Below, piece by piece: positions 315 through 15,542 of a DNA stretch of 15,586 nt. The DNA is taken from the NCBI GenBank assembly GCA_030630935.1, contig DAOVMD010000018.1, positions 1 through 15,586 on the forward strand, given 5' to 3'. Position 1 is the first letter of the stretch. Each line of letters begins with the position of its first letter. Under the pieces are notes generated by a model. The model was not told the DNA's origin. It ran no database searches and worked only from the letters and a program-made list of their open reading frames with translations. Both the position numbers and the translations under genes were made by a program. Origin of the DNA: Candidatus Mcinerneyibacteriota bacterium (GTDB taxonomy: Bacteria; AUK180; JAQVHJ01).

Positions 315-1631
315 ATGATTAAAAAGTTTATTATATTAGCAATAATCCTTACTTTTTTAATTGGCTGTTCGGAGTCCCAACTACCCGAAGAAAGCATCAT
401 CACATTAACAATATGGGAGAATTATAATAATGAAGAGCATGTTGTTTTTATTGAAATTGTTGATGAATTTGTTAAAGAGTATAATGAAACTCACCCGGAT
501 AAGAAAATAAAAATTCAGGTTGATAGAGTTCCGTTTGACGGTCTCCTTCCCAAATTAAAGACTTCAGCCATGACAAAAACAACCCCTGATATCTGCAGAG
601 TTGATGTCGCACATGTTGTTCCGCTTGCATTCGGCAAGTCGTTAATTAATCTGGATAAATTTGGTGCAAAGGAACTTCATGATAAACTCGTTCCGGCAGC
701 AATCAACTCTAATATTATTACTATTAAAGGAAGTGATGGGACAATCAGAAAGGGAACCTACGGCCTCCCGGATCAAACCAATACAACCGTATTATTTTAT
801 AATAAAACAATCTTCAAAAGATTTGCAAAAGAGCTCAAGGAAGCCGGGTTAAACCCGGATACTGCACCTCGAACCTGGGATGAACTAATTAAGTACGGTA
901 AGATAATCACAAAGCCTGACCAAGGGATTTATGCATTTGCAATGAACAACTCGCTCTGGTGGACTTTCCCGTTCTTTAACAGTTTTGGAGTTGAATTTAT
1001 AAGTTTTGAAGACGGAAAATTTATTACAAATATTAATAAGAAACCGGCAATTCAAGCTCTTCAATTAAAGGTAGATCTCTATAGGAAACACAAGATTGAA
1101 GCCGGGGCATGGCAGTCAGGGGCAATTGGAAAAGAACAGGGATTCATTAATAATAAATATGCAATGATAATTACGGGGCCCTGGATGCTGCAGTCGTTTA
1201 AAAATTCAAAAGTAAACTTTGGAACCGCTTTAATTCCTGCGGGACCAAAAGGAACATCATCTAATGTTGGCGGAACTAATATGGTAATTTTCAAATCATG
1301 TAAACATCCGGAAATTGCTTATGAATTCCTATCATACCTGGTATCTGAAAAGACACAGGTTAAATGGTGTAATACTCTTGGTCAGATACCGGTAGTTCTC
1401 AGTGCATTTGATAAGGTTGATTTAAAGAAGTTCCCTGAAATTAAGATATTCATGGAGCAAATGAAGACAGCAAAAGCCAGACCGATGATCCCAAATTATG
1501 ATATCCTGGAAACAGATATTATTAACCCGGAGATGGCGGCAGCTCTTTCAGGTCAGAAAACAGTAAAGCAGGCACTCGATGATGCAGCAAGAGAGATTGA
1601 TAAAAAGATACTTTCGATCATGAATGAATAA
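315..1631 (+). CDS. Sugar ABC transporter substrate-binding lipoprotein
   Basis: This 438-residue protein looks like a cluster-1-type extracellular solute-binding protein, the family of maltose and maltodextrin receptors. It would capture sugar in the periplasm and deliver it to an inner-membrane ABC permease. Residues 1-18 form a lipoprotein signal with an ideal lipobox (LIGC, lipidation at Cys18). Family landmarks are GLP at 150-152, FYNK at 161-164 and KYAMIITGPW at 281-290, whose tryptophan is commonly a sugar-stacking residue. The length is normal for the family. The start is fixed by AGAAGG at 302-307, 7 nt upstream. No permease or ATPase gene is next to it, so its partners lie outside the window. 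Exact ligand is not readable; the neighbouring glucan-binding genes make maltodextrin the best inference. Family assignment is firm and substrate is tentative. Confidence 0.92.
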   Translation: MIKKFIILAIILTFLIGCSESQLPEESIITLTIWENYNNEEHVVFIEIVDEFVKEYNETHPDKKIKIQVDRVPFDGLLPKLKTSAMTKTTPDICRVDVAHVVPLAFGKSLINLDKFGAKELHDKLVPAAINSNIITIKGSDGTIRKGTYGLPDQTNTTVLFYNKTIFKRFAKELKEAGLNPDTAPRTWDELIKYGKIITKPDQGIYAFAMNNSLWWTFPFFNSFGVEFISFEDGKFITNINKKPAIQALQLKVDLYRKHKIEAGAWQSGAIGKEQGFINNKYAMIITGPWMLQSFKNSKVNFGTALIPAGPKGTSSNVGGTNMVIFKSCKHPEIAYEFLSYLVSEKTQVKWCNTLGQIPVVLSAFDKVDLKKFPEIKIFMEQMKTAKARPMIPNYDILETDIINPEMAAALSGQKTVKQALDDAAREIDKKILSIMNE

Positions 1632-1640
1632 GTCGTAGGA

Positions 1641-1896
1641 GGCTGTCCGACAACTTGTGGCCAACTTTTTCATTAAGAAAAAGAAAGTATTGTCATTACG
1701 CATCGAGCAAAGTGAGATCTAGCTTGTGTCCGTAAAATGCGATAAACATCGCATGAGCTTACCCTGCAAGCAGGGTTTAAAAATGGGTGCTTTGCACCCC
1801 CAGATTGCCACACTTTGCTTTAGCGCGTGGCTGGAGTGTAACGGAAGTCATCCCGACACGTCGGGACAATGACAAATAACAAGTTATCAGACAGCC
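1641..1896. mobile_element. MITE-like element with 18-bp terminal inverted repeats
   Basis: Positions 1641-1658 (ggctgtccgacaacttgt) and 1879-1896 (acaagttatcagacagcc) are inverted repeats matching at 16 of 18 positions. The 256 bp enclosed have no credible gene and are packed with hairpins: atgcgat/atcgcat at 1737-1754, accctgc/gcagggt at 1761-1776, gggtgc/gcaccc at 1785-1799 and tcccgac/gtcggga at 1851-1866. A diverged copy of the tgtcattgcga-type repeat begins at 1691. No obvious target-site duplication is seen. The structure is that of a non-autonomous, transposase-free element, possibly one into which or around which repeats have accumulated. It may also end transcription of the upstream gene. 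Confidence 0.6.
1785..1878. repeat. Hairpin plus agattgcc...caatgacaaataa repeat, inside the MITE-like element
   Basis: The order is a gggtgc/gcaccc hairpin (1785-1799), then cagattgcc (1801-1809), a variable middle, then caatgacaaataa ending near 1879. The same order is found at 9879-9938: a gggagc/gctccc hairpin, agattgcc, a variable hairpin, then caatgacaaataa. Conserved ends with a variable middle suggest one repeat family in which internal hairpins are swapped or rapidly changing. Confidence 0.55.
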
Positions 1897-1902
1897 TTGT
1901 AG

Positions 1903-1922
1903 AGACGTGCCATGGCACGTCT
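1903..1922. repeat. Perfect 20-bp palindrome before the DOMON/FlgD-Ig gene
   Basis: The sequence agacgtgccatggcacgtct is a perfect palindrome. It starts 6 bp after the MITE-like element and ends 21 bp before the GGAG ribosome-binding site (1944-1947) of the gene starting at 1955. In RNA it would form a 10-bp hairpin with little loop. It could be an operator for a dimeric regulator or a repeat of the gtagagacg-palindrome type known from many bacterial genomes. Confidence 0.8.
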
Positions 1923-1954
1923 TATAAATGAAATACAAATCATGGAGTTCACAA

Positions 1955-3091
1955 ATGAAAAAGATATTAACCTTCCTATTTTTATTAGTTTTATTAATAC
2001 CAATCTCATACGGCATAACCGAAACAGATAAATCGTACAAGATCACAATTGATGGAAAAACCGACGATTACGATCAAACAACTGAATCATTATTCAGAAA
2101 TTCAAGCATTGCTTTGGAGTCTTCATTTGATTCATATTGGGGTAAAGAAAATGAAGTCACGGATATAAAATGTACCTGGGATGAATATTATTTATACATT
2201 GCCCTGAACAGCACAATAAATGGAAACAACCTCATGTTCTTCATTGATTCTATCGATGGCGGGATTCCTGATTTTAAACCGGAGAATTCCAGTGAGAGTA
2301 TATCCTGGAATAGGTCATTGACTTTTGTGAAGCATTATCCGGACTTCTACCTCGGAACATGGCCTGATAATAATACGCCTGAAAATTATAAAGCTCTATC
2401 TGAAATCAGAGATGAGAAATTTTATAACTCGACTGATTTTGAGTCAGCTGCATATCTGCCCACTTCAATAAATGGGGCAATTGAAATGAAAATTGCATGG
2501 TCAGCTTTATTTGGAACGACCCCGGGTAATGTCCCAATTGGAGCAAAAGTAAAATTATCCGCTTGTGTTACAGGGTCATGGGGGGGAAGTACTCCAGACG
2601 TGATCCCAGATAACTCTGCCGGAGCATCGACTGACGGACAGCAAAGAGTTATTATCGATAACTTCGCAATTGTAAATATCGATGATGATAATGACGGAAA
2701 ACCCGATATTGGAGTTAACCCGGTGGCAAGGACAACCTTTATTATTTCTTCCCTACCAAATAAACCTAATCCGATTAATATTACAAACCTGAAGGTTTAC
2801 CCAAAAATAATCTCGACTGTTCATGGTCATGAAGTTTATATTTCTTTTTATTTAAACATCTCAAAAAATATAACAGTGAAAGTTTTTAATATGAAAGGTG
2901 ATTTCATAAAAACAATTATCTATAATAAAACTGCCGTAATAGGCGAAAATAATAAAGATACAAATCCCAGCCTATACTGGGATGGAACAGACGAACAAGG
3001 AAAAACTGTCCCTGAAGGAATTTACATCATTTCAGTCACTGACGAAGATAAAACATTCCGCAAACTTGTTGCTGTTGCTGTTGTTCATTAA
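1955..3091 (+). CDS. Secreted protein with DOMON-like domain and C-terminal FlgD-type Ig domain
   Basis: The chosen start gives 378 residues and a clean signal peptide (MKKILTFLFLLVLLIPISYG). It sits 7 nt after GGAG at 1944-1947. An in-frame ATG at 1928 adds nine residues ahead of the signal and has no good ribosome-binding site. Residues about 28-245 open with TIDGKTDDYD and continue as a beta-rich domain resembling the CBM9/DOMON-like binding module of glucodextranase and archaeal amylopullulanases. Residues 243-251 (DDDNDGKPD) look like a calcium-binding DxDxDG loop. Residues about 278-378 match FlgD-type Ig or type IX secretion C-terminal domains, with YWDGTDEQGKTVPEGIY at 341-357. No catalytic motif is seen. 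It is probably a secreted or surface carbohydrate-binding accessory protein, and the similar module in the lipoprotein at 8215-9582 links it to the glucan cluster. Function is inferred. Confidence 0.75.
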   Translation: MKKILTFLFLLVLLIPISYGITETDKSYKITIDGKTDDYDQTTESLFRNSSIALESSFDSYWGKENEVTDIKCTWDEYYLYIALNSTINGNNLMFFIDSIDGGIPDFKPENSSESISWNRSLTFVKHYPDFYLGTWPDNNTPENYKALSEIRDEKFYNSTDFESAAYLPTSINGAIEMKIAWSALFGTTPGNVPIGAKVKLSACVTGSWGGSTPDVIPDNSAGASTDGQQRVIIDNFAIVNIDDDNDGKPDIGVNPVARTTFIISSLPNKPNPINITNLKVYPKIISTVHGHEVYISFYLNISKNITVKVFNMKGDFIKTIIYNKTAVIGENNKDTNPSLYWDGTDEQGKTVPEGIYIISVTDEDKTFRKLVAVAVVH

Positions 3092-3227
3092 TGGGGACGT
3101 ATATTACGTTTTTATCATGTTGCACATTTATGTGCATTGGAAACTCTGAAAGTTCTTTACAGATGCAGAAGATAGAGAAGGTCAATTAAGCGTTAGTTTT
3201 AAAGTATATAATGATGGAGAAGGTAAT
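3092..3227. other. Intergenic spacer with palindrome and in-frame coding-like relic
   Basis: Just after the upstream stop is a short stem acgta/tacgt (3097-3109) followed by four further Ts, a weak terminator candidate. A perfect hairpin tgcacat-tt-atgtgca lies at 3121-3136. From 3150 to 3227 the frame of the next gene stays open for 26 codons with no start codon and reads like protein (FFTDAEDREGQLSVSFKVY and onward). The next gene has its own strong ribosome-binding site and signal peptide, so this stretch is not its N-terminus. It may be a fragment of a decayed gene. Confidence 0.5.
3207..3212 (+). promoter_or_regulatory. Possible -10 box before the PorV-like gene
   Basis: A perfect TATAAT ends 4 bp before the ribosome-binding site GGAGAAGG (3216-3223). 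No good -35 box stands 16-18 bp upstream (aattaa at 3184-3189 with 17-bp spacing). The geometry, with transcription starting at the ribosome-binding site, matches the two better promoters in this window. AT-rich DNA makes chance matches common. Confidence 0.3.
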
Positions 3228-4133
3228 ATGAAAAAAGGTTTATTAATTTTACTGTTTATGTTTACAGCAGTCGTAATATGCTTTGCTGCGTTTGAGGATT
3301 TACCTCAGACCGCGAAGACCCGTGCACTTGGCGGTGCGATATCTCCCAGGATTGAAGGAGTCGAGTCAATCTTTTATAATCCCGCAGGGATGTTCACATC
3401 AGAAAAGATTTCAATAACACTTGCTTACAGCCAACCATATAATATTTCGGACTTGAATCGTTCAGTTATAGGAATAAACTATAAATTTAAGCGATATAAT
3501 TTTGGACTTGGAATTAATCAACTTTCTCTAAGTGATGTTTACACAGAGCGAAAAATTATCTTAGCTGCCAGTATCAGGTTACAGAGGCTATACCTTGGTT
3601 TAGCATTTAATTATTACACGATTTCAATCTCAGGATTGGACTATGATTATATGCCTCCAGTGATTGTGATTGGAGGTTCGCCGGGCGCGTTAGATTCTCA
3701 AGTAAGTATAAAATCATTTTCAATAGGTGCTTTATATCGTCTTCGGGAAAATTTAAACTTATCACTTGCTGTTTACGATTCTGGAAATAATTATTTCATG
3801 CACTTGAACCAGGAATATTATCTTGGTACTACTTTTGAAACAAAGCTGCCCGGAACAATTTCAATCGGAGCATTCTATAGTTTTAAAGATTATGTTTTCA
3901 TTTCAACTGAACTGAAGAATACACCTGAAGAATTTGATAATTTGGAAGAATCGCTCAGATTAGGTTTGGAATTTCTATTTTATAAATCCTTTGCAATGTG
4001 CCTGGGTAATTATTCGGGTGATACGACTTATGGATTTGGAATTATTACAAAAAACTTTAATCTTGACTTCGCATTTATATCAAATCCCAATTTAGGAAAT
4101 AATTATATGTACTCACTTCAAATAAAATTTTAG
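3228..4133 (+). CDS. PorV/PorQ-like outer-membrane beta-barrel protein
   Basis: This 301-residue protein has a signal peptide (residues about 1-20, cleavage near CFA/A). Next comes RALGGA and FYNPAG, the N-terminal signature of the PorV/PorQ/UPF0164 group of FadL-like barrels. Alternating hydrophobic strands run to a C-terminal aromatic residue (YSLQIKF), the usual barrel-insertion signal. PorV proteins carry type IX secretion cargo to the attachment complex in Bacteroidetes, while relatives elsewhere have unknown roles. It follows a gene whose product ends in a FlgD/type-IX-like C-terminal domain, which makes an export or surface-attachment role thinkable. In this operon it could also act as a glucan channel. 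The start is set by GGAGAAGG at 3216-3223. It is 11 bp from the next gene, so co-transcription is likely. Fold is confident and role is open. Confidence 0.8.
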   Translation: MKKGLLILLFMFTAVVICFAAFEDLPQTAKTRALGGAISPRIEGVESIFYNPAGMFTSEKISITLAYSQPYNISDLNRSVIGINYKFKRYNFGLGINQLSLSDVYTERKIILAASIRLQRLYLGLAFNYYTISISGLDYDYMPPVIVIGGSPGALDSQVSIKSFSIGALYRLRENLNLSLAVYDSGNNYFMHLNQEYYLGTTFETKLPGTISIGAFYSFKDYVFISTELKNTPEEFDNLEESLRLGLEFLFYKSFAMCLGNYSGDTTYGFGIITKNFNLDFAFISNPNLGNNYMYSLQIKF

Positions 4134-4144
4134 CTGGAGTTATA

Positions 4145-5641
4145 ATGAAAAGAAACCGGATATTAATACTAAACCTGTTTTTAATAATCCTTTTATTCAG
4201 GCTTACAGCATTCCCGGTCGGGAACAGAATAGAAGGTTATTTTGAAACTGGTTTTGGAACTAATAAAGAGAACGATATTTACGAATGGAATATGTGGCAG
4301 CCCAATACGAGATTTGAATTAAAGTTAACCGGTAACCCGATTGGGGAAGTTGAGACATTTTTAAAGATCTATGCTTACCGGAATTACTTTGACCAGCAAG
4401 AATATGATTCATCTGATTATGACCGGTTAGAATTTCTTGAAGGGCATATGCGTTTCCGAAAGAGTTCCGGTCCAAAAGGTTTTGAGCTGAATTTCTTCTT
4501 TCGTGAAAAGCGTTTCTGGATAGGGAGTCCCCTACTCGAACTGACTCAAGACTCCGGTTGGGATGACAAGTTCGGAGATAATACTCAGGGAGTCAGAGCA
4601 GATATCTGGGGAATAAACGGATTTAATATTAAATTGATCGCGGTAGATTTTTCCGGTGGCGGTGGTGAGGACGGTTATATCGGCAGGATTACCCGAAGTA
4701 TGTTTAATGGAAAATTTATCCTCGGGACTTCATACTTAAGAAAAAATACAATTATTATTGAAGATGAATTTGACACAGAAAATCAACATGAAGATTATAA
4801 CCAGGTTGTTGCAGGAGACTTTAAGATTTCTATTAAGGGAATCGACTTATTTGCAGAGTATGCAGAATCAAAAACGAAATTGGACTCTGAAGTATTTGAA
4901 GATCAGGAAGCTTCCCCTGATGCTTATAAGGTTGAGATCCGAAATATTAAAATCGGTAATTTCAGAACTGGAATCTACAACATCAATTTCAGTTACCGTG
5001 ACATTGGAGAAAACTATACAAACTGGATGGGAAAATCGGATAATGACCAGGTGGGCTATAATCTCAATTCATATTATCTTGTTGCCGGGTTTGCGATAAC
5101 ATTTACATTCAACTACGATTATCAGGAAGAGCATAATGAAGTCCAGGCACTTTATAAACCTGAAATGACTTTAAATACGAAGGAATATTTTTATTATGAA
5201 TCATACATTGAGTTTACAAAAGGTTTCAAGTCAAAGTTATATTTTCGAAACGGAAAAGATTTCTGGTATGGTGAAGAATATGAGCACAATGATATTTTTA
5301 GTGAGTTAATTGTAGAGAATAAATTAGGATTTTTAAAAACACAATTTAAAATAAAAGATATCGATTCACAATTTGAAAAATATATTTATGGAACTGAACT
5401 TGTAATTAATCTCTCTGATAAATTCCGGCTATTCACACGTTATCTTAATGTTCTCGAGTTAGGTAAAAACCGTGAGAATGTTTTTGTACAATTTCAGTAC
5501 TACCCCGGGAGCGGAGCTGAGCTTTTCCTGGAATACGGCAACAGCGGTTATGGAAATGATGGATTGGTTGACGACGATGACTTTATCTCAGGTGGAGATA
5601 ACGAAAATAGAGTTCAATTAATCTTTAAGGTTTGGTTTTAA
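4145..5641 (+). CDS. Outer-membrane beta-barrel (porin-like) protein of unknown specificity
   Basis: The protein has 498 residues, a signal peptide ending near LTAFPVG (residues 1-25), and then about 470 residues of alternating polar and hydrophobic strands rich in Tyr, Phe and Asp. It closes with VQLIFKVWF, a typical outer-membrane barrel end. Acidic loops (for example residues 478-492, VDDDDFISGGDNENR) may bind calcium or face outside. No plug or TonB box is seen, so it is not a SusC-type receptor. Its start is set by GGAG at 4136-4139, 11 bp after the previous stop. It sits between a PorV-like barrel and a glucan-binding barrel, so it may be a companion pore for glucan fragments, but nothing in the sequence proves the substrate. 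I do not recognise a named family. Confidence 0.75.
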   Translation: MKRNRILILNLFLIILLFRLTAFPVGNRIEGYFETGFGTNKENDIYEWNMWQPNTRFELKLTGNPIGEVETFLKIYAYRNYFDQQEYDSSDYDRLEFLEGHMRFRKSSGPKGFELNFFFREKRFWIGSPLLELTQDSGWDDKFGDNTQGVRADIWGINGFNIKLIAVDFSGGGGEDGYIGRITRSMFNGKFILGTSYLRKNTIIIEDEFDTENQHEDYNQVVAGDFKISIKGIDLFAEYAESKTKLDSEVFEDQEASPDAYKVEIRNIKIGNFRTGIYNINFSYRDIGENYTNWMGKSDNDQVGYNLNSYYLVAGFAITFTFNYDYQEEHNEVQALYKPEMTLNTKEYFYYESYIEFTKGFKSKLYFRNGKDFWYGEEYEHNDIFSELIVENKLGFLKTQFKIKDIDSQFEKYIYGTELVINLSDKFRLFTRYLNVLELGKNRENVFVQFQYYPGSGAELFLEYGNSGYGNDGLVDDDDFISGGDNENRVQLIFKVWF

Positions 5642-5712
5642 TTAAGTAATTTCACTATTGTTCTTTTAGATAAATAAAAGTTTAGAATTTAAAAATATAT
5701 GGAGTTTATTAA

Positions 5713-7764
5713 ATGAAAAAAAGCAAGTTTATAATTTTACTTCTATTAAGTCTTTTTCTTATATCTTCGGTCTATGCATCTCTTCCGAAGAAGGCAAAGG
5801 GCGGGATAGAATTCTCGTATGAGAACCCATCTGCTGAAGCAGTATTCCTGGTCGGCGAGTTTAATAATTGGGACATAACCAAAACCCCAATGAAAAAAGA
5901 TGACAAGGGAATTTGGCGAGTGACAATTAAATTTGACCGAGGTGTTTACCAGTATAAATTTTATTTTGACGGCCAGTATATCCAGGACCCTGACAACCCT
6001 GACTCCCAACCTGATCCGTACGGCGGAAAGAACAGTACCATTACAGTTGATAAATACGGCAATGTTATTCGGACAACGAAGAAGGAAAAAATCGTCTCCA
6101 AGACACCATTAAATTCAAAGGTTTATATTGGCGGTTTATATTATGGTAAATATTCTTGGCAACCGGAGTCATCAGATTATGATAGATGGAGACTGGGTTC
6201 ACCTATCCATAATATTAATCTATTTTTCAAATCACAGATAAATGAAAATATAACATTGAAAACGACAATGGCTATTAATAATAATGTTGAAGGCGTTGAT
6301 CTATGGAAATCTCATCTACGGTTTTTTAATTCATACCTAAAATTCTCAGCGAAGAAATTTGATTTGATTACATTTGATAATTACGAAATAGTTCAGTTTA
6401 ATGATCCAGCAGGATTATTTGGAAATGTTGGGATATTCAATCACCCATTCGGGAGAAATACCAGGGGGATTGTTTTTCAAACTTATCCGTTTACAACAGA
6501 TGTGACTTTTATCTACGGAGATGCAATCGGGATAGATGCTGCAGAATACTACTCCCCGGGAATGGCAAAATTATATTCTCAATATACAGACTTCCTTGGA
6601 TTACGGCTCCAGAAAAAAATTACAAGTTTTCTATTATTAGGTTTAACAGGGAGAATGGATAGGGGTTTTGATAATAAAACCGTAAGGTCGCCAAACCTGG
6701 AAAATATCAATTATGAAGTTTATTCTGTAAATTCGACTTATGCAGTTGACCTGGAGTTTTTTAAAGACTTTGGAGATTCGTCCAACCAATTAAAAACAAC
6801 AATTGAATATTTAACAGGGAATGATCTTGTCCAGGCAACTTCAATGGATAAAGATATTACAGGTGAATATGAAGATACAAAACTTAATTGGGAAACACGA
6901 AAAACAACCAGCATAATTCTTGGTGTTTCGCTTACGCTTAGGAAATTTTTCAGAACGGAATTTGAATTTGAATCAATTAACACAACTTTATCACCGGAAG
7001 GTGTTTACTTTGCAACTTTCGACTCAAGTTTTGATGAGTTAAATTCAAAGATTAATAGACAGAAACTAAATATTACATATCAATTAAACCTGAGAAAATT
7101 AACATTATATTTTGGAGTTGGAATTAATTTAAAAACTTTTGACTGGGCGGATGAGATGCTCTGGGATCTAAATGAACAATTGATATACCGACCTCCATTC
7201 TTTACACCGGTTCCGTATAGTGAATTTATCTGGCTTGGTTATGATAAATATGTTTTCTATACTCCATCTATTAAACTTAAGACTGTTGATAATAGATTGA
7301 TACTGTCACTTGACAGTAAGATAAGTGCTTATGATATTGGATATGAACCAAGGTCAATGGAAAATATTGTGAAGGTTTATTTCTACTTCACTCCATCACA
7401 GAAATTCGGGATCTTTGCGAATGTTAGAAACATGAACTATTCTGATAAGGACGGACTTCTTGGTTTTGATGAAACCTTCACCGCAGTTTACGGCGGGTTC
7501 AGATATCAATTAGGGAAGAATATTAAAACCGAGATTGTTTGGGGGAATTCAACTTCACTCGCACCAATTTATAAGAATTCCTTAATCTATCACGATAGTG
7601 ATCCGTATAACAGGGAGCACTACCTGATCACAAACGGCCCTAATTATAATGACTTGAGTAATGTAGATTATTTCCAAACTCAGTTTGCTGATGATCTCTA
7701 TAATGCAGAAAAGAGTTTATCTAAGAAAAAAGAGATTGCAGTAAAAGCTGTAATTGAATTTTAA
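5713..7764 (+). CDS. Glycogen-binding (AMPK-type CBM48) domain fused to an outer-membrane beta-barrel
   Basis: This 683-residue protein has a signal peptide (residues 1-22, cleavage after VYA). Residues about 30-113 form an E-set glycogen-binding domain: FNNW at 50-53, YKFYFDG at 81-87, and N107-S108 in the terminal loop. By comparison with the AMPK beta glycogen-binding domain, W53, K82, Y89 and N107 would occupy the sugar-contact positions, with Tyr in place of the second Trp. Residues about 135-683 are barrel-like strands ending in the aromatic AVIEF. A barrel of roughly 550 residues is large enough for 16 or more strands. The N-terminal module would sit in the periplasm if the barrel has the usual orientation, and could guide maltodextrins through the pore. 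The start is fixed by GGAG at 5701-5704. Only 12 bp separate it from the next glucan-binding gene. Domain calls are firm and transport function is inferred. Confidence 0.85.
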   Translation: MKKSKFIILLLLSLFLISSVYASLPKKAKGGIEFSYENPSAEAVFLVGEFNNWDITKTPMKKDDKGIWRVTIKFDRGVYQYKFYFDGQYIQDPDNPDSQPDPYGGKNSTITVDKYGNVIRTTKKEKIVSKTPLNSKVYIGGLYYGKYSWQPESSDYDRWRLGSPIHNINLFFKSQINENITLKTTMAINNNVEGVDLWKSHLRFFNSYLKFSAKKFDLITFDNYEIVQFNDPAGLFGNVGIFNHPFGRNTRGIVFQTYPFTTDVTFIYGDAIGIDAAEYYSPGMAKLYSQYTDFLGLRLQKKITSFLLLGLTGRMDRGFDNKTVRSPNLENINYEVYSVNSTYAVDLEFFKDFGDSSNQLKTTIEYLTGNDLVQATSMDKDITGEYEDTKLNWETRKTTSIILGVSLTLRKFFRTEFEFESINTTLSPEGVYFATFDSSFDELNSKINRQKLNITYQLNLRKLTLYFGVGINLKTFDWADEMLWDLNEQLIYRPPFFTPVPYSEFIWLGYDKYVFYTPSIKLKTVDNRLILSLDSKISAYDIGYEPRSMENIVKVYFYFTPSQKFGIFANVRNMNYSDKDGLLGFDETFTAVYGGFRYQLGKNIKTEIVWGNSTSLAPIYKNSLIYHDSDPYNREHYLITNGPNYNDLSNVDYFQTQFADDLYNAEKSLSKKKEIAVKAVIEF

Positions 7765-7776
7765 AAGGAGTGGATT

Positions 7777-8199
7777 ATGAAAATTAAATTAATCCAACTG
7801 GGTTTAGTAATACTGCTAATTTCAATTCTTGCAAACTGTACAATTACAAATATTATTAAGAAACGTTTACCACCACCACAATTTGAAAAGGAAGGTGTGG
7901 TGTTTTCATTTGAAGCACCTTATGCAAAAACTGTAACGATCGCAGGTGATTGGAATAATTGGGGCGGAACATCAAGTGCGGGTGGGAGATATGACCCTAA
8001 CATAGGAAAAATGATTGACCCTGATAAAGATGGGGTCTGGACAATTCTCATCCCCTACTCTGAGATTGGAGCAGGAAGACATCAATATAAAATTGTAATA
8101 GACTCAAACACCTGGGTATTAGACCCTAATAATTTTGAAACTTCTACCGAAGGCGGATTTACTAACTCATTAATAATCGTTCCTGAAAAAGGGAGATAA
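7777..8199 (+). CDS. Small lipoprotein consisting of one AMPK-type glycogen-binding domain
   Basis: The product is 140 residues long with a lipobox (ILANC, lipidation at Cys21), so the mature protein is a lipid-anchored single E-set domain. WNNW at 59-62, W88, YK at 104-105, W113 and N130-S131 match the positions of the AMPK beta glycogen-binding domain that contact maltooligosaccharide (Trp, Lys, second Trp, Asn). This is the most complete binding site of the three domains in the cluster. With no enzyme attached, it is best read as a surface or periplasmic glucan-capture protein, analogous in role though not in fold family to SusE/SusF. The start follows GGAG at 7767-7770 by 6 nt, and the gene is 12 bp after the barrel fusion and 15 bp before the next lipoprotein gene. 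Confidence 0.88.
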   Translation: MKIKLIQLGLVILLISILANCTITNIIKKRLPPPQFEKEGVVFSFEAPYAKTVTIAGDWNNWGGTSSAGGRYDPNIGKMIDPDKDGVWTILIPYSEIGAGRHQYKIVIDSNTWVLDPNNFETSTEGGFTNSLIIVPEKGR

Positions 8200-8214
8200 T
8201 AAGGAGAACAATAC

Positions 8215-9582
8215 ATGAAAAAGATTTCATTAATATTAATAATATCTACTTTACTCCTGATACTTTTCGGGATGGGTTGTGATAAGAAGAACCCGACAGA
8301 GCCCTTCATAACCGAAGGTGTAAGCAGAACATATTCTTCGGTTCAGATAGTAGGGACATTTAATAATTGGGGGATTTCCGACCCTGTAAACGACTTGGTT
8401 TTTAAAGGTGAACATATTTGGGAAAAAGTAATTGCTCTAACATCAGGAACTTATGACTTCAAATTTACAACCGGTTATTCCTGGGACAATGATAACTTTG
8501 GTGAGAATGATACTCCGGAGACCGGTATTGACCCTGTTCTTATCTCCGGGACCGCAGAAAAAGACGGTGGTAATATTGCAGTAACCATTTCAAGTTCCGG
8601 AAATTATAAATTCATTTTTAATGATCAGAACTTTGAATATTCAGTTGAGAATGTTGGATATATCCCCGAAATAACTAACTATACAATAAGTTCTATCTCT
8701 TCAGCCGACACATTCACATTCAGGTGCCAGGCAACTGATTTAGATGGAGCAGTATCCTGGGTAAAAGTTCATTATTGGGATAATGCCGGCGGAGCTAATA
8801 CCGAACAAATAGAAACTCTAACAAACACAACCGGTAATACTTATATCTCAACAGTAAAAGCACCTTCTTCAGATGGTGAATACACATATTACTTTGAAGC
8901 AAGGGACGATGATGGTAACCTGTCTTATTATCCGAGCAATGCCCCTGCCTCAAAAGAGACCCTGGTTGTTAGTGACACAATAATAATCGATGGTGTAATC
9001 GATACACTATATGGTATTCCAATTGCATCAGACCCTAATACAGATGGAAATGGAAATGATGTAATGGACCTGGTTGATCTATATGTTTACGATGATGCGG
9101 ATAATTATTATTTCCTCTTCACAATTGATGGGAATACTGGTATAGATAATTGGGGGAAATATATGATTTACATTGATACTACAAATGATGTAAACGGAGC
9201 AACTCTGGATGCCTGGGGTAGAGCTGTAATTGTAAATGATAATCATAAACCTGAATATGCCCTTAATTGCTGGGTTGATGACCTGGCGTTCGGTACGACA
9301 AAATCTCAATTATTCTCATGGAATGGAGTAAGCTGGGATCTTCCCGGACAACCCGATGAAGCTGCACTATCTTCAGGAACAATAAGTATTATCGAATACC
9401 GTGTTGCAAAATCGAAGCTTGGAAATCCGACCGAAATCTGGATTGAAGTTTGGGATACAGGTAATGGTGGGACAGATAATGCCCAGGATACAATTAATAA
9501 TCCTGCAGATGACTGGAATGCTGGTGATTGGACTACTCAATCTGATCTCGATTGTACAACACATTATGTAAATCAAAATTGA
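8215..9582 (+). CDS. Multidomain starch-binding-type lipoprotein (E-set, Ig/FN3-like, DOMON-like)
   Basis: The product is 455 residues with a lipoprotein-type signal (GMGC, Cys22; the lipobox is looser than usual). Residues about 40-145 are an E-set glucan-binding region: FNNW at 49-52, YSWDNDNFG at 88-96 and GGNI at 118-121. That order recalls the SusE/SusF and pullulanase X25-type starch-binding domains. Residues about 150-250 look like an Ig or fibronectin-type spacer (ATDLDG, GEYTYYFEARDDDGN). Residues about 256-455 resemble the DOMON-like binding module of glucodextranase, opening with IIIDGVIDTLYGIP, a pattern shared with the protein at 1955-3091. No catalytic residues are recognisable, so it is likely a surface glycan-binding protein projecting its domains on a stalk. 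The start is set by AAGGAG at 8201-8206. It is the last gene of the run, and no strong terminator follows. Confidence 0.82.
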   Translation: MKKISLILIISTLLLILFGMGCDKKNPTEPFITEGVSRTYSSVQIVGTFNNWGISDPVNDLVFKGEHIWEKVIALTSGTYDFKFTTGYSWDNDNFGENDTPETGIDPVLISGTAEKDGGNIAVTISSSGNYKFIFNDQNFEYSVENVGYIPEITNYTISSISSADTFTFRCQATDLDGAVSWVKVHYWDNAGGANTEQIETLTNTTGNTYISTVKAPSSDGEYTYYFEARDDDGNLSYYPSNAPASKETLVVSDTIIIDGVIDTLYGIPIASDPNTDGNGNDVMDLVDLYVYDDADNYYFLFTIDGNTGIDNWGKYMIYIDTTNDVNGATLDAWGRAVIVNDNHKPEYALNCWVDDLAFGTTKSQLFSWNGVSWDLPGQPDEAALSSGTISIIEYRVAKSKLGNPTEIWIEVWDTGNGGTDNAQDTINNPADDWNAGDWTTQSDLDCTTHYVNQN

Positions 9583-9600
9583 GAAAAAACAAAGAAAAAA

Positions 9601-9630
9601 AATTTAACATGGACTTGAACGAGACATGTA
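9601..9630 (+). repeat. Interspersed repeat module R1, copy 1
   Basis: This 30-bp segment matches 15321-15350 at 26 of 30 positions by eye. Both share atttaaca, ggactt and gagacatgta, and both are preceded by an A-rich run. Confidence 0.75.
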
Positions 9631-9653
9631 GTGATAATTTAAAAACGACTGAT

Positions 9654-9741
9654 TGTCATTGCGAGAGAGGAGTATAACGACGACCGCGGCAATCTCGTGT
9701 CATTTAAAGACCAAAGCATTGTATCTCAAACAAAGTAGGGG
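9654..9741 (+). repeat. Interspersed repeat module R2, copy 1
   Basis: It opens with tgtcattgcga and passes through a variable middle to gcggcaatct (9686-9695). It then continues through aagaccaaa, attgt and acaaagtagggg. The copy at 14949-15029 shares all of these blocks with one small gap and a different middle. The core recurs inverted at 9893-9933 and in diverged form near 1691. Palindrome-rich repeats starting with this motif are known from many bacterial genomes. Confidence 0.75.
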
Positions 9742-9757
9742 TTAAGGGCCTTAACCC
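9739..9757. repeat. Hairpin gggttaag/cttaaccc
   Basis: Arms of 8 bp at 9739-9746 and 9750-9757 enclose a ggc loop. No T-run follows on either strand, so it is not a convincing terminator. In the second R2 copy the equivalent place holds an unrelated hairpin (15032-15051), so the position is conserved but the sequence is not. Confidence 0.65.
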
Positions 9758-9808
9758 TGATCGTGATTAATAATCCTCCTGGATGAAATGTATAAAAACA
9801 AAAAAAAG
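9755..9808 (+). repeat. Interspersed repeat module R3, copy 1
   Basis: The shared blocks with 15188-15240 are ccctgatc, aatcctcc, atgaaa and an A-rich tail containing aaaaacaaaaaaaa. The alignment was made by eye and has small gaps. Confidence 0.6.
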
Positions 9809-9878
9809 AATATGAAAACATCGAATGTAAGGATTAATAAACGTTCGAACAATCGGTTTATCAATTAATAATTATAAA

Positions 9879-9892
9879 GGGAGCAAGCTCCC
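9879..9892 (-). terminator. Possible terminator of the minus-strand operon
   Basis: On the minus strand the hairpin gggagc-tt-gctccc is followed by tttataatt, a short T-rich tail, 66 bp beyond the stop codon at 9958. The tail is weak and the hairpin is also part of the repeat family (compare 1785-1799), so its role as a terminator is uncertain. Confidence 0.35.
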
Positions 9893-9933
9893 AGATTGCC
9901 GCAGCACTAATAAATTAGTGCCTCGCAATGACA
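9893..9933 (-). repeat. R2 core, inverted copy with internal hairpin
   Basis: Read on the minus strand it begins tgtcattgcgag and ends gcggcaatct, the same ends as 9654-9695 and 14949-14984. Its middle is a perfect 8-bp-arm hairpin, gcactaat at 9904-9911 and attagtgc at 9914-9921, absent from the other copies. Confidence 0.75.
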
Positions 9934-9957
9934 AATAAGCGGTTGTTTGAGAAGCAC

Positions 9958-11730
9958 TCAGTCGTTTAATTCAGCATCGTTCAGCATGCGCTGTATCAGG
10001 ATATACCATACAAACTTTGGCAGCGCCAGCATACGGCGCCATCGATAAGGCGCTCTGATAAGGCGATATAACCATTCAAGGCCTAATCTTTGAAATAAGA
10101 ACGGGGCACGTTTAACCTGACCTGATAGAATATCAAAGCTCCCGCCTACTCCGATAAAAACGCCTTGATCAAATGCATAATAATTTCTATTTATCCACTT
10201 TTCCTGTGCAGGACTACCAAGTCCCACAAATATTATTTCCGGTTGAGACCTCGTTATCTCCTCAATTATAAGGACCTCTTCTTTCTTTGAAAAGAAACCG
10301 TGATGAAAACCAACAATTTTTATCCCCGGAAAATTCTCTTCCAGACCCATTTTAATTTTAGTTGTAATTCCGGGACTGCTTCCAAGTAAAAACAATCTAT
10401 AACCTTTAAATGCACAGAGTCTCAATAACCTTTTTGTCAGGTCGATTCCTGTAACCCTTGATTTCAGAGGTTGACCAAGAAAGTTTGAAGCCCAGATGAG
10501 ACCAATTCCATCTGGAGTAATAATTTTTGCGTCATTTAAAATCCGCTTAAATAAAATGTTTTCAGTTGCCTTCATGACCATAAGTGAATTTGCAGTAATG
10601 ACGTAGCCTTTTCTCCTCTCGTCAACAAGGTTAATTATTTTATTAATCGTTTCATTATAATCAAAGTTGTTAATCTTGACATTTAATATTAAGGCTTCAG
10701 GGGGATACATAAAGAATTTCTTTTTCTTCCGGCGCATGATAGTAAATGCAATAAATGTAAACAGGAGGACTTCCAGCAATAAAACCAGGAATATTGTTGA
10801 GTGAGATACTTCAAAGTACCATGATATAAGATAAGTTGATACGGTAAGCAAGTATAGGAAGAAAATAAAAGTTAAGACATAATTCATTTTCAGAGTACCT
10901 TGAAACACTCTTGAATCCAAGCTTGCAACTAAAGTTCCCTTAAGGTAAGAGAATAAAATAATCAATATAAATATAAAAATAAATATTAAAATCAAGACAA
11001 CAGGTAAGAAGACAAGAAACATAGTAGATAACTTTGTATATCCTATCAGGCTGAGAACTCCGAGTAGGAAACCTATTAAGAAACTCCCTGATTTACCTGT
11101 CAGGATTTTTGCTGGGTAGAATTCATTTCGAAATATACTCAAGAGAGAACCCAGCACAATTATTGTAATGAAGAAAACTGGCTGATCAATATTCCCTTGT
11201 AATTTCATCAGGAGTAGAATTCCTATTAATGCAATACTTATAGCCCCGGAGATAAATCCTTCAAGTTCAAAAAACCAGGAGAGGAAATTTGTAACCAGGA
11301 AAAACCAGATTAATGTAATCGCAATTGAAACAAATCCATTCAGGTAGATAATCTTCCCTGACGGCAGCATGAAAAATTTGATTTTTATATCAAGTAGAAT
11401 AATGATAATAAAGATAAAGAGTTCGAGCAATAAGCGCTTTCCTTTATTTAACTTTCCTAAATCCTCAAGTAACCCGATCATCATTATAAAGAATCCTGCT
11501 GAGATAATGAAGAGGAAAAGGTAATCAATGGTAGTATCAAACAGATATATGGATAGGATTATTGAAATTAGTATTGAAAAGAATAGGATTGATCCACCAA
11601 GGAATAAAGCAGGAGTTTTCCTAAAGAATGTAGAGTCTTTAAATCTATCAGACCATCTCATCTTGAGTGTAATAAATGTTAGGGCTTCAGTAATTATAAA
11701 AGCAATTAGATATATAAAGATGAACTTCAT
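9958..11730 (-). CDS. Degenerate MraY/WecA-like membrane domain fused to WecG/TagA/CpsF glycosyltransferase
   Basis: The protein has 590 residues. Residues 1 to about 335 form about ten membrane segments of the polyprenyl-phosphate sugar-phosphotransferase fold, but its signature acids are altered: GLLED at 86-90 where DD is usual, NFLSWFFELEG at 148-158 where NxxNxxDGxxGL is usual, and GKSGS at 212-216 where GDxGS is usual. Residues about 350-575 are a TagA/WecG/CpsF domain with intact motifs: TAN at 379-381, PDGIG at 406-410, RVTG at 425-428, PAQE at 507-510 and RAP at 541-543, then GLEWLYRL at 550-557. Family members move a sugar such as ManNAc, ManNAcA or glucose onto a lipid-linked acceptor in cell-wall or polysaccharide assembly. 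The membrane half probably anchors the enzyme or binds the lipid acceptor rather than making it. Its ATG overlaps the upstream stop (ATGA) and has no clear ribosome-binding site, so translation is coupled. Confidence 0.88.
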   Translation of the reverse strand: MKFIFIYLIAFIITEALTFITLKMRWSDRFKDSTFFRKTPALFLGGSILFFSILISIILSIYLFDTTIDYLFLFIISAGFFIMMIGLLEDLGKLNKGKRLLLELFIFIIIILLDIKIKFFMLPSGKIIYLNGFVSIAITLIWFFLVTNFLSWFFELEGFISGAISIALIGILLLMKLQGNIDQPVFFITIIVLGSLLSIFRNEFYPAKILTGKSGSFLIGFLLGVLSLIGYTKLSTMFLVFLPVVLILIFIFIFILIILFSYLKGTLVASLDSRVFQGTLKMNYVLTFIFFLYLLTVSTYLISWYFEVSHSTIFLVLLLEVLLFTFIAFTIMRRKKKKFFMYPPEALILNVKINNFDYNETINKIINLVDERRKGYVITANSLMVMKATENILFKRILNDAKIITPDGIGLIWASNFLGQPLKSRVTGIDLTKRLLRLCAFKGYRLFLLGSSPGITTKIKMGLEENFPGIKIVGFHHGFFSKKEEVLIIEEITRSQPEIIFVGLGSPAQEKWINRNYYAFDQGVFIGVGGSFDILSGQVKRAPFLFQRLGLEWLYRLIRAPYRWRRMLALPKFVWYILIQRMLNDAELND

Positions 11731-14790: not shown

Positions 14791-14815
14791 GAAGCGAAAA
14801 AAATAGTTTCGCTTC
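14791..14815. repeat. 9-bp-arm hairpin upstream of minus-strand promoter
   Basis: The arms gaagcgaaa (14791-14799) and tttcgcttc (14807-14815) enclose aaaatag. It starts 8 bp beyond the -35 box of the promoter at 14755-14783. It may be an operator, or a fragment of the gcgaagc-type repeats of the region. Confidence 0.55.
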
Positions 14816-14861
14816 GCTCTACATTTAAGATTTACGATTGATAATTATTAATTTAAGATTG

Positions 14862-14890
14862 ATTTTGCATTATGTATTACAATGCTTTTG
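14862..14890 (+). repeat. Repeat module R4, partial copy
   Basis: The tattacaatgcttttg part matches the second half of the copy at 109-150. The first half is diverged here. Confidence 0.45.
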
Positions 14891-14948
14891 TTTGGAGCAA
14901 TATTTCTTAATGCGAAATTTTTAATTTATTTATTCGAAAACAAAAGAA

Positions 14949-15029
14949 TGTCATTGCGATGGAGCGAAGCGACTGCGGCAATCTGTTCAATTCGAAGACC
15001 AAATAATTGTTTCACAGACAAAGTAGGGG
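14949..15029 (+). repeat. Interspersed repeat module R2, copy 2
   Basis: It starts tgtcattgcga and has gcggcaatct at 14975-14984. The following aagaccaaa, attgttt and acaaagtagggg align with 9696-9741. The middle (ggagcgaagcgac) differs from copy 1. Confidence 0.75.
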
Positions 15030-15031
15030 CA

Positions 15032-15051
15032 TTGTTTGCTTTCGCAAACAA
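15032..15051. repeat. Hairpin ttgtttgc/gcaaacaa
   Basis: Arms of 8 bp at 15032-15039 and 15044-15051 enclose tttc. It occupies the same place after gtagggg as the unrelated hairpin at 9739-9757. Confidence 0.65.
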
Positions 15052-15148
15052 CAGTTTGAGTAATCAGTTTGAGTTTGCTCCTATAAATAGGAGAGTCTTA
15101 CAAATAACGTATTAAATTATTAAGAGTTTCACAAACGAAGTGAAGTGA

Positions 15149-15185
15149 TCCCGATCAATTTCAGGAACATGAAATTAAATCGGGA
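15149..15185. repeat. Imperfect hairpin tcccgat...atcggga
   Basis: The arms 15149-15163 and 15170-15185 pair as tcccgat and aatttca with a small asymmetric bulge, around ggaaca. Another tcccga/tcggga pair lies at 15515-15535. Confidence 0.55.
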
Positions 15186-15187
15186 AA

Positions 15188-15240
15188 CCCTGATCAAATG
15201 AATTTAATCCTCCCGTATGAAAAAAAACAAAAAAAATAAA
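15188..15240 (+). repeat. Interspersed repeat module R3, copy 2
   Basis: It is the counterpart of 9755-9808 (ccctgatc, aatcctcc, atgaaaa, A-rich tail). Confidence 0.6.
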
Positions 15241-15248
15241 ATCTAACC

Positions 15249-15277
15249 GCCCCGAAAAAAACGGGGTAAACTCCGGA
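15249..15277. repeat. GC-hairpin repeat R5, copy 1
   Basis: The unit is a cccc/gggg stem over an A-run, followed by taaactccgga. It recurs at 15543-15570 with one A fewer. Both copies are followed by cgcagag and A-runs, although copy 1 has an extra gatgcagag-type unit. Confidence 0.8.
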
Positions 15278-15320
15278 TGCAGAGGACGCAGAGAAAAAAA
15301 ACAAAAAACAAAAGAAACAA

Positions 15321-15350
15321 TATTTAACAGGGACTTTTACGAGACATGTA
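15321..15350 (+). repeat. Interspersed repeat module R1, copy 2
   Basis: It matches 9601-9630 at 26 of 30 positions, including an identical gagacatgta at the end. Confidence 0.75.
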
Positions 15351-15400
15351 ATGGACTATAGCATCGCTTCGCTCTGCAAGTAAAAATTAACAATTAATAA

Positions 15401-15439
15401 TGAATAATGGTTTTGCTTTATATATGAGAATGCTCTTAG
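15401..15439 (+). repeat. Repeat module R4, copy 3
   Basis: It shares tgaataatgg, tttgcttta and aatgct with 109-150, allowing a one-base gap. Confidence 0.55.
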
Positions 15440-15542
15440 TTAAAGTTGGAGTTGCTTAATAAAACAATTGAATGCCTTTATAAAAATAGCCGCTGACTGA
15501 CTGAAAGGAAGGAATCCCGACTTTTCATATCGGGAAGAGGAC

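Follow-up and report, generated by a model that had tools for sequence, protein, structure and literature searches.

A candidate outer-membrane module for alpha-glucan uptake without SusC or SusD in several little-known bacterial phyla

The closest described systems for alpha-glucan uptake are the SusCDEFG system and polysaccharide utilization loci of Bacteroidota, built from an outer-membrane barrel, starch-binding lipoproteins and secreted or periplasmic amylases, and the LamB-MalE-MalFGK-MalS system of E. coli, in which a passive-looking pore is combined with a periplasmic receptor, an ATP-binding cassette (ABC) importer and a signal-peptide amylase. To our knowledge, the passage of polysaccharide fragments across the outer membrane in diderms outside Bacteroidota and Proteobacteria is mostly obscure, and a TonB/SusCD mechanism is often the default assumption. 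Here we describe a locus in a 15,586-nucleotide stretch of DNA from a Candidatus Mcinerneyibacteriota bacterium. This stretch, hereafter the window, is the entire contig C405 of a 3.16-Mb metagenome-assembled genome (MAG) that is 80% complete. Seven genes, all on the + strand, run from 315 to 9582, and we propose, with a probability of about 0.72, that they form an outer-membrane module for the uptake of alpha-1,4-glucans (starch, glycogen or maltodextrin) that works without SusC/SusD and feeds MalEFG. A role of the conserved block in alpha-glucan uptake, taken by itself, is slightly more probable still.

The module begins with a MalE-like substrate-binding lipoprotein (315-1631), its putative periplasmic receptor, followed by a secreted protein in which an N-terminal domain precedes a C-terminal FlgD/type IX-like sorting domain (1928-3091). 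Next come a PorV-family (FadL-like) outer-membrane barrel (3228-4133), a predicted 24-strand outer-membrane barrel of a new family that we call Bar498 (4145-5641), a second large barrel that carries an N-terminal carbohydrate-binding module of family 48 (the CBM48-barrel, 5713-7764), a small CBM48 lipoprotein (7777-8199) and a larger lipoprotein (8215-9582). A first-pass annotation of this DNA had described the last five as closely spaced genes for three barrels and two lipoproteins, and the coordinates, the intergenic gaps (11, 71, 12 and 15 bp), the lipoboxes and the barrel evidence all agree with it. The extent that it gave to the system, 3228-9582, proved too short on the upstream side, as the gene at 1928-3091 also belongs to the conserved block and is its first member.

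The evidence that these genes belong together comes from their conservation. To avoid circularity, a Bar498 profile, with no CBM in the query, was searched alone against 84,980 genomes and recovered 31 loci, whose titles include Candidatus Eisenbacteria, Krumholzibacteriota, Zixibacteria 4484_93 and one Gemmatimonadetes bin; the genomes with the block are MAGs or genomes without an assigned name. With the window counted and contigs of insufficient length omitted, the CBM48-barrel immediately follows Bar498 in 31 of 31 loci, a PorV gene lies directly upstream of Bar498 in 28 of 28, and a sorting-tail gene precedes PorV in 24 of 24. In tblastn comparisons of the fetched loci, the order sorting-tail protein, PorV-like barrel, Bar498, CBM48-barrel, CBM48 lipoprotein was identical everywhere. 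Since adjacency is kept in all 31 loci, the association goes beyond chance. Members of the Bar498 family are 26-34% identical to the window protein and sit on long branches of a tree that follows the submitters' phylum labels only loosely; the family is old, and either transfer or paralogy may account for the mismatch. Some genomes may carry two blocks, as one contig (C68 of genome G105) holds a second Bar498 copy at 16-1188 together with CBM48 matches.

A smaller collection of 290 genomes, seven of them from the host phylum, gave a similar picture. Searches with the 683-residue CBM48-barrel, whose matches were mostly to CBM48, found, in about ten genomes from other phyla, full-type relatives whose match extended past the CBM. 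All 19 Bar498-positive genomes were also positive in this search, against a background of 129 of 290 (hypergeometric P about 9e-8, with relatedness ignored). A single-sequence search of genome contigs with the 683-residue barrel gave no match, and the Bar498 profile did match.

The block keeps company with genes for alpha-glucan degradation and import. Genes for MalE, MalF or MalG, or for glycoside hydrolases (GH) of families GH13 and GH57 or glycogen-debranching enzymes (GDE), lie within about 10 kb of the block in 24 of 27 loci, and both MalF and MalG are present in 20 of the 27. Four loci (L042, L043, L050 and L059) have MalF, MalG, MalE and sometimes MalK after or alongside the block, together with enzymes that Pfam assigns to GH57 with CBM48 and Glucodextran_C or CBM20, to GH13 with CBM48, and to GDE; these neighbouring enzymes have signal-peptide-like N-termini and no evident sorting tail. 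In G006, a genome of the same family as the window genome, the end of the barrel, both lipoproteins, MalF and MalG share one contig. Thus conservation of the neighbourhood, which had been named beforehand as a test, was found to be strong, with MalEFG and CBM48-bearing GH57 and GH13 enzymes in the same loci.

The window's own receptor fits this setting. The 315-1631 product matches SBP_bac_1 at 140.5 bits and is nearest to maltose/maltodextrin receptors, as the first pass had recognized; its PDB relatives include maltose-binding proteins and GacH, and over most of its length it shares 41-47% identity with the MalE proteins encoded in 15 other blocks (L042/L069 and L043/L063 each counted once). 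That annotation had also noted the lack of SusC, SusD and glycoside hydrolases. A Pfam scan of the window proteins likewise detected no SusC/SusD, TonB plug or GH domain, so this part holds within the window, but hydrolases are present in the block of relatives. Elsewhere in the window genome, a CBM48-containing N-terminal fragment that bears a signal peptide overlaps in sequence with the start of a GH13, which points to a secreted CBM48-GH13 amylase in this genome too. GH13 is present in the window genome and in G006, while searches of five other genomes of the class found neither GH13 nor the barrel.

When modelled singly with AlphaFold2, both large proteins formed barrels, as the first pass had expected. 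Bar498 was predicted with 24 strands (predicted local distance difference test score, pLDDT, 84), and the CBM48-barrel with its CBM48 followed by 22-24 strands (pLDDT 74). No plug is apparent in either, in the family scan or in the models, and Bar498 has no CBM. Profile-profile alignment indicates that the two barrels are homologous (hhalign 98%, E 6e-14). Judged by this alignment they are distant paralogues, and the locus therefore holds a tandem pair of which one member bears a CBM48. No Pfam barrel model covers either protein. The best structural matches of Bar498 are the ushers PapC and FimD (Z 18-20), followed by many porins, while the CBM48-barrel matches porins, TonB-receptor barrels, ushers and SusC about equally (Z 13-15).

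Two identities for the barrels were considered and set aside. A SusC-like origin of the CBM48-barrel was considered on account of a sub-cut-off PF00593 match (24.5 bits) in its relative in genome G216. This match is probably a general barrel signal, and structural comparison brings up TonB receptors, porins and ushers without distinction. Porins with 18 strands, LamB included, are among the listed fold matches and do not stand out. The folds also resemble AlgE, and this likeness to an exporter and to the ushers, together with the branching-enzyme-like GH57 proteins present in organisms with the block, could be taken to mean that the block serves to export or anchor an alpha-glucan of the cell's own making, as capsule or periplasmic glucan. 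We regard such an export or envelope role as very improbable: a substrate-binding protein with MalF and MalG is an import arrangement, secreted amylases would destroy the product, and we noticed neither a synthase nor a polymerase for polysaccharides among the genes of the block.

The glucan-binding modules point to the substrate. The CBM48 of the CBM48-barrel (residues about 28-114; 5794-6054) scores 46.4 bits and the 7777-8199 lipoprotein 26.2 bits, against a Pfam CBM_48 cut-off of 22.4; the divergent CBM48/X25-like domain of the 8215-9582 lipoprotein falls under both applicable cut-offs (AMPK1_CBM 23.2 versus 26.8; CBM_48 15.8 versus 22.4). The first-pass assignment of an E-set domain with an (F/W)NNW signature to these three genes thus stands for the motif, which occurs as FNNW or WNNW in all of them, and for two of the three domains, the third being marginal. 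The profile of the barrel family matches the glycogen-binding domains of AMPK beta-2 and beta-1 in the PDB at 1e-14 to 1e-17, and the fold of the barrel CBM superimposes on the CBM48s of a Pyrococcus amylase, E. coli branching enzyme and AMPK with Z about 13 and a root-mean-square deviation of about 2. The ligand-contact residues, which we take to be W100, K126, W133 and N150 in AMPK beta-1 numbering, correspond to W53, K82, Y89 and N107 in the window barrel. Among barrel CBMs the first W, the K and the N are kept in 29 of 29 and the second W in 28 of 29; all four are present in each of the 36 rows of the lipoprotein CBM alignment, although some of these rows are overlapping copies of a single locus and at least one (L086) is fused to the barrel in one reading frame. 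The modules look functional, and residue conservation predicts that they bind alpha-glucans. CBM48 families are diverse, some CBM48 esterases have been reported to bind xylan, and Foldseek/VIA also match feruloyl esterase CBM48s (Z about 13), so that these modules might instead recognize another glycan such as xylan, or serve in protein-protein contacts. This is decidedly unlikely, given the near-invariant AMPK-type W/K/W/N set, the profile match to AMPK beta at 1e-17, and neighbours that are amylolytic GH57, GH13 and GDE enzymes and MalE-like receptors.

Both lipoproteins carry a lipobox (LANC at 7777-8199, GMGC at 8215-9582). In the CBM48 lipoproteins the lipobox cysteine is followed by a spacer, an invariant R-(L/V/I)-P-x-P motif 9-11 residues past the cysteine (8 in one divergent member) and then the CBM48; the motif is likely a docking or spacer element. 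The G006 homologue (L012:5992-6414) lacks the lipobox cysteine, reading SSTITN in place of xxCTITN, and is otherwise 75% identical. At L086:475-3234 the CBM48-barrel and the CBM48 lipoprotein form one open frame of 920 residues, by fusion or by assembly error. In the larger lipoprotein the divergent N-terminal module is followed by an Ig-like middle and a C-terminal domain; its homologue at L012 in G006 is 62% identical. A homologue of this lipoprotein gives a weak, sub-cut-off SusF_SusE match, and it is possible that the protein is a functional analogue of SusE/SusF. Its C-terminal domain recurs near the N-terminus of secreted proteins at L084:18505-20655, L090:17131-19218 and L049:3-629, the first two of which are sorting-tail proteins of about 700 residues.

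The two upstream genes of the block may connect it with type IX secretion. The 3228-4133 product matches the PorV/PorQ family at E 1e-10, below the model cut-off, and the PorV structure 6h3i at E 1.8e-7; NF033709 is matched by all 20 block PorV homologues, with 41.7 bits for the window member against a cut-off of 90. The C-terminal FlgD_ig domain of the 1928-3091 product reaches 26.9 bits against a cut-off of 27, and the protein is 27-31% identical to its short homologues (alignment A4). Glucodextran_C, which occurs in longer homologues, was tried as the N-terminal domain and rejected, as no significant similarity emerged when it was compared by profile with the short forms. SprA_N was found in 11 of 16 genomes with the block. 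From its missing match in the window genome (G000) we had considered that this species might have no type IX secretion; this was dropped when the full SprA profile matched there in pieces, on two contigs and below cut-off.

Upstream of the block at L050, a protein with an AMPK1_CBM and a Por_Secre_tail-like end (2108-3595) is a candidate surface glucan binder. Such a protein, the PorV and type IX-like tails, which suggest surface display, and the presence of CBM48 in every part of the block would suit a docking device, in which barrels and lipoproteins scaffold CBM48s and amylases for adhesion to starch granules or glycogen and the products enter through general porins. We consider docking without transport unlikely. 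It leaves unexplained why there should be a pair of large paralogous barrels without plugs, one of them with an N-terminal CBM that would lie on the periplasmic side, and why the block is linked to MalEFG.

Returning to uptake, the position of the barrel CBM48 shapes the mechanism that we propose. When an outer-membrane barrel has an even number of strands, a domain N-terminal to its first strand is expected to be periplasmic or luminal. The barrel CBM would therefore be a periplasmic or luminal trap and not a surface antenna. An outward-facing glucan module on the barrel is thus not supported, and the pore or its periplasmic mouth may be where "capture" takes place. Barrels of the Zixibacteria- and Krumholzibacteriota-type loci carry a tandem pair of CBM48s; a lumen would hardly hold both, so that a periplasmic position is favoured for at least one. 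In our model, secreted or periplasmic CBM48 amylases would cut the polymer, and the fragments would enter through one or both large barrels. The barrel CBM48 and the lipid-anchored CBM48s would bind the entering chain, conferring selectivity and acting as a concentration trap at the pore and periplasmic mouth; the chain would then be handed to MalE and moved into the cell by MalFGK. A capture element on the outside may be supplied by the sorting-tail protein, with the PorV-like barrel aiding its export. The module would not draw on TonB for energy, relying instead on binding, digestion and ABC import. A periplasmic or luminal CBM trap as the specific mechanism falls somewhat short of even odds. 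We put forward a little more tentatively the wider proposal of a distinct class of glycan importer in several phyla, in which a pair of paralogous giant plugless barrels and CBM48 lipoproteins form a TonB-independent affinity trap that would pull long alpha-glucan chains through the outer membrane to MalE; that the CBM48 of one barrel sits in the lumen or at the periplasmic mouth is, as part of that proposal, equally tentative.

Several observations weigh against the uptake module as proposed. The evidence is sequence or prediction throughout, we infer cooperation and transport from gene order, and the side faced by the CBMs is likewise deduced. Z-scores establish the barrel folds of the models, not glucan transport; the CBM48-barrel model is only moderately confident (pLDDT 74), and pores so large and plugless would leak unless gated. 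The window barrel has a tyrosine where the other 28 barrel CBMs have tryptophan. Neither Mal nor GH genes are found at 3 of 27 loci, one of which (L065) ends soon after the block, and orthologous MalF and MalG were not found in the window MAG (the best match, 38%, lies in a different operon), which is 80% complete and in which the contig begins just before MalE.

Beyond the module, the window contains an open reading frame (9958-11730) that joins a glycosyl transferase family 4 domain and a WecG/TagA transferase domain, two surface-polymer synthesis steps usually encoded by separate genes. Imperfect dispersed repeats, with copies 76-84% identical, are common to the intergenic stretches 9584-9957, 14800-15450 and 97-151, an example being the pair 9584-9633 and 15304-15353.

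We found no earlier description of the block in the open-access literature, the scope of our search, which left aside subscription papers and preprints; with respect to that literature, this is a previously undescribed outer-membrane gene set of several little-known bacterial phyla. It offers a concrete and testable alternative to TonB/SusCD for starch and glycogen in genomes titled Eisenbacteria, Krumholzibacteriota, Zixibacteria and others, adds two types of barrel that Pfam barrel models do not yet cover, and provides in Bar498 a sequence marker for annotating the trait in metagenomes.

How does the block compare with the systems described at the outset? SusD (PF07980) was found in none of the 16 block genomes, with the control matching in Bacteroides only, and LamB (PF02264) gave no match over cut-off in the same 16, with a positive E. 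coli control. Each of the 16 genomes has TonB receptors, but the only match at a block position is the sub-cut-off one inside the CBM48-barrel of G216, and the window proteins have no PF00593 or PF07715 match. The block is therefore not a member of the Sus or LamB systems, though in outline it would work like either, and the non-Sus design proposed by the first-pass annotation is supported. Like the Bacteroidota loci it pairs an outer-membrane barrel with CBM48 lipoproteins and amylases; it differs in that no SusD was found in the 16 genomes and no plug-bearing TonB-dependent SusC in the block, and import would continue through a MalEFG-type ABC transporter. Its pore, receptor, importer and amylase recall the E. 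coli system. LamB, however, has 18 strands, whereas the block barrels, which list LamB among many fold matches (Z 13-15), have no LamB family match over cut-off, are predicted to be larger (22-24 strands), and form a paralogous pair, one with a CBM48, joined by CBM48 lipoproteins.

The likeness of Bar498 to the ushers PapC and FimD is one of barrel size only, a 24-strand fold, since family scans report no chaperone, pilin, plug or usher N- or C-terminal domains. The block may resemble type IX secretion, where PorV serves cargo with a C-terminal sorting domain, in that a PorV-family barrel accompanies a putative cargo protein ending in a FlgD/CHU_C-like domain and SprA homologues occur in block genomes; in contrast, the window PorV is far below the family cut-off, and both genes form part of an alpha-glucan locus. 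Finally, the CBM48/AMPK-beta module has the same fold and contact residues in the block proteins as in the known CBM48 structures, which come from kinases, branching enzymes, pullulanases, amylases, phosphatases and esterases, whereas in the block it is joined to an outer-membrane barrel or stands alone on a lipid anchor.

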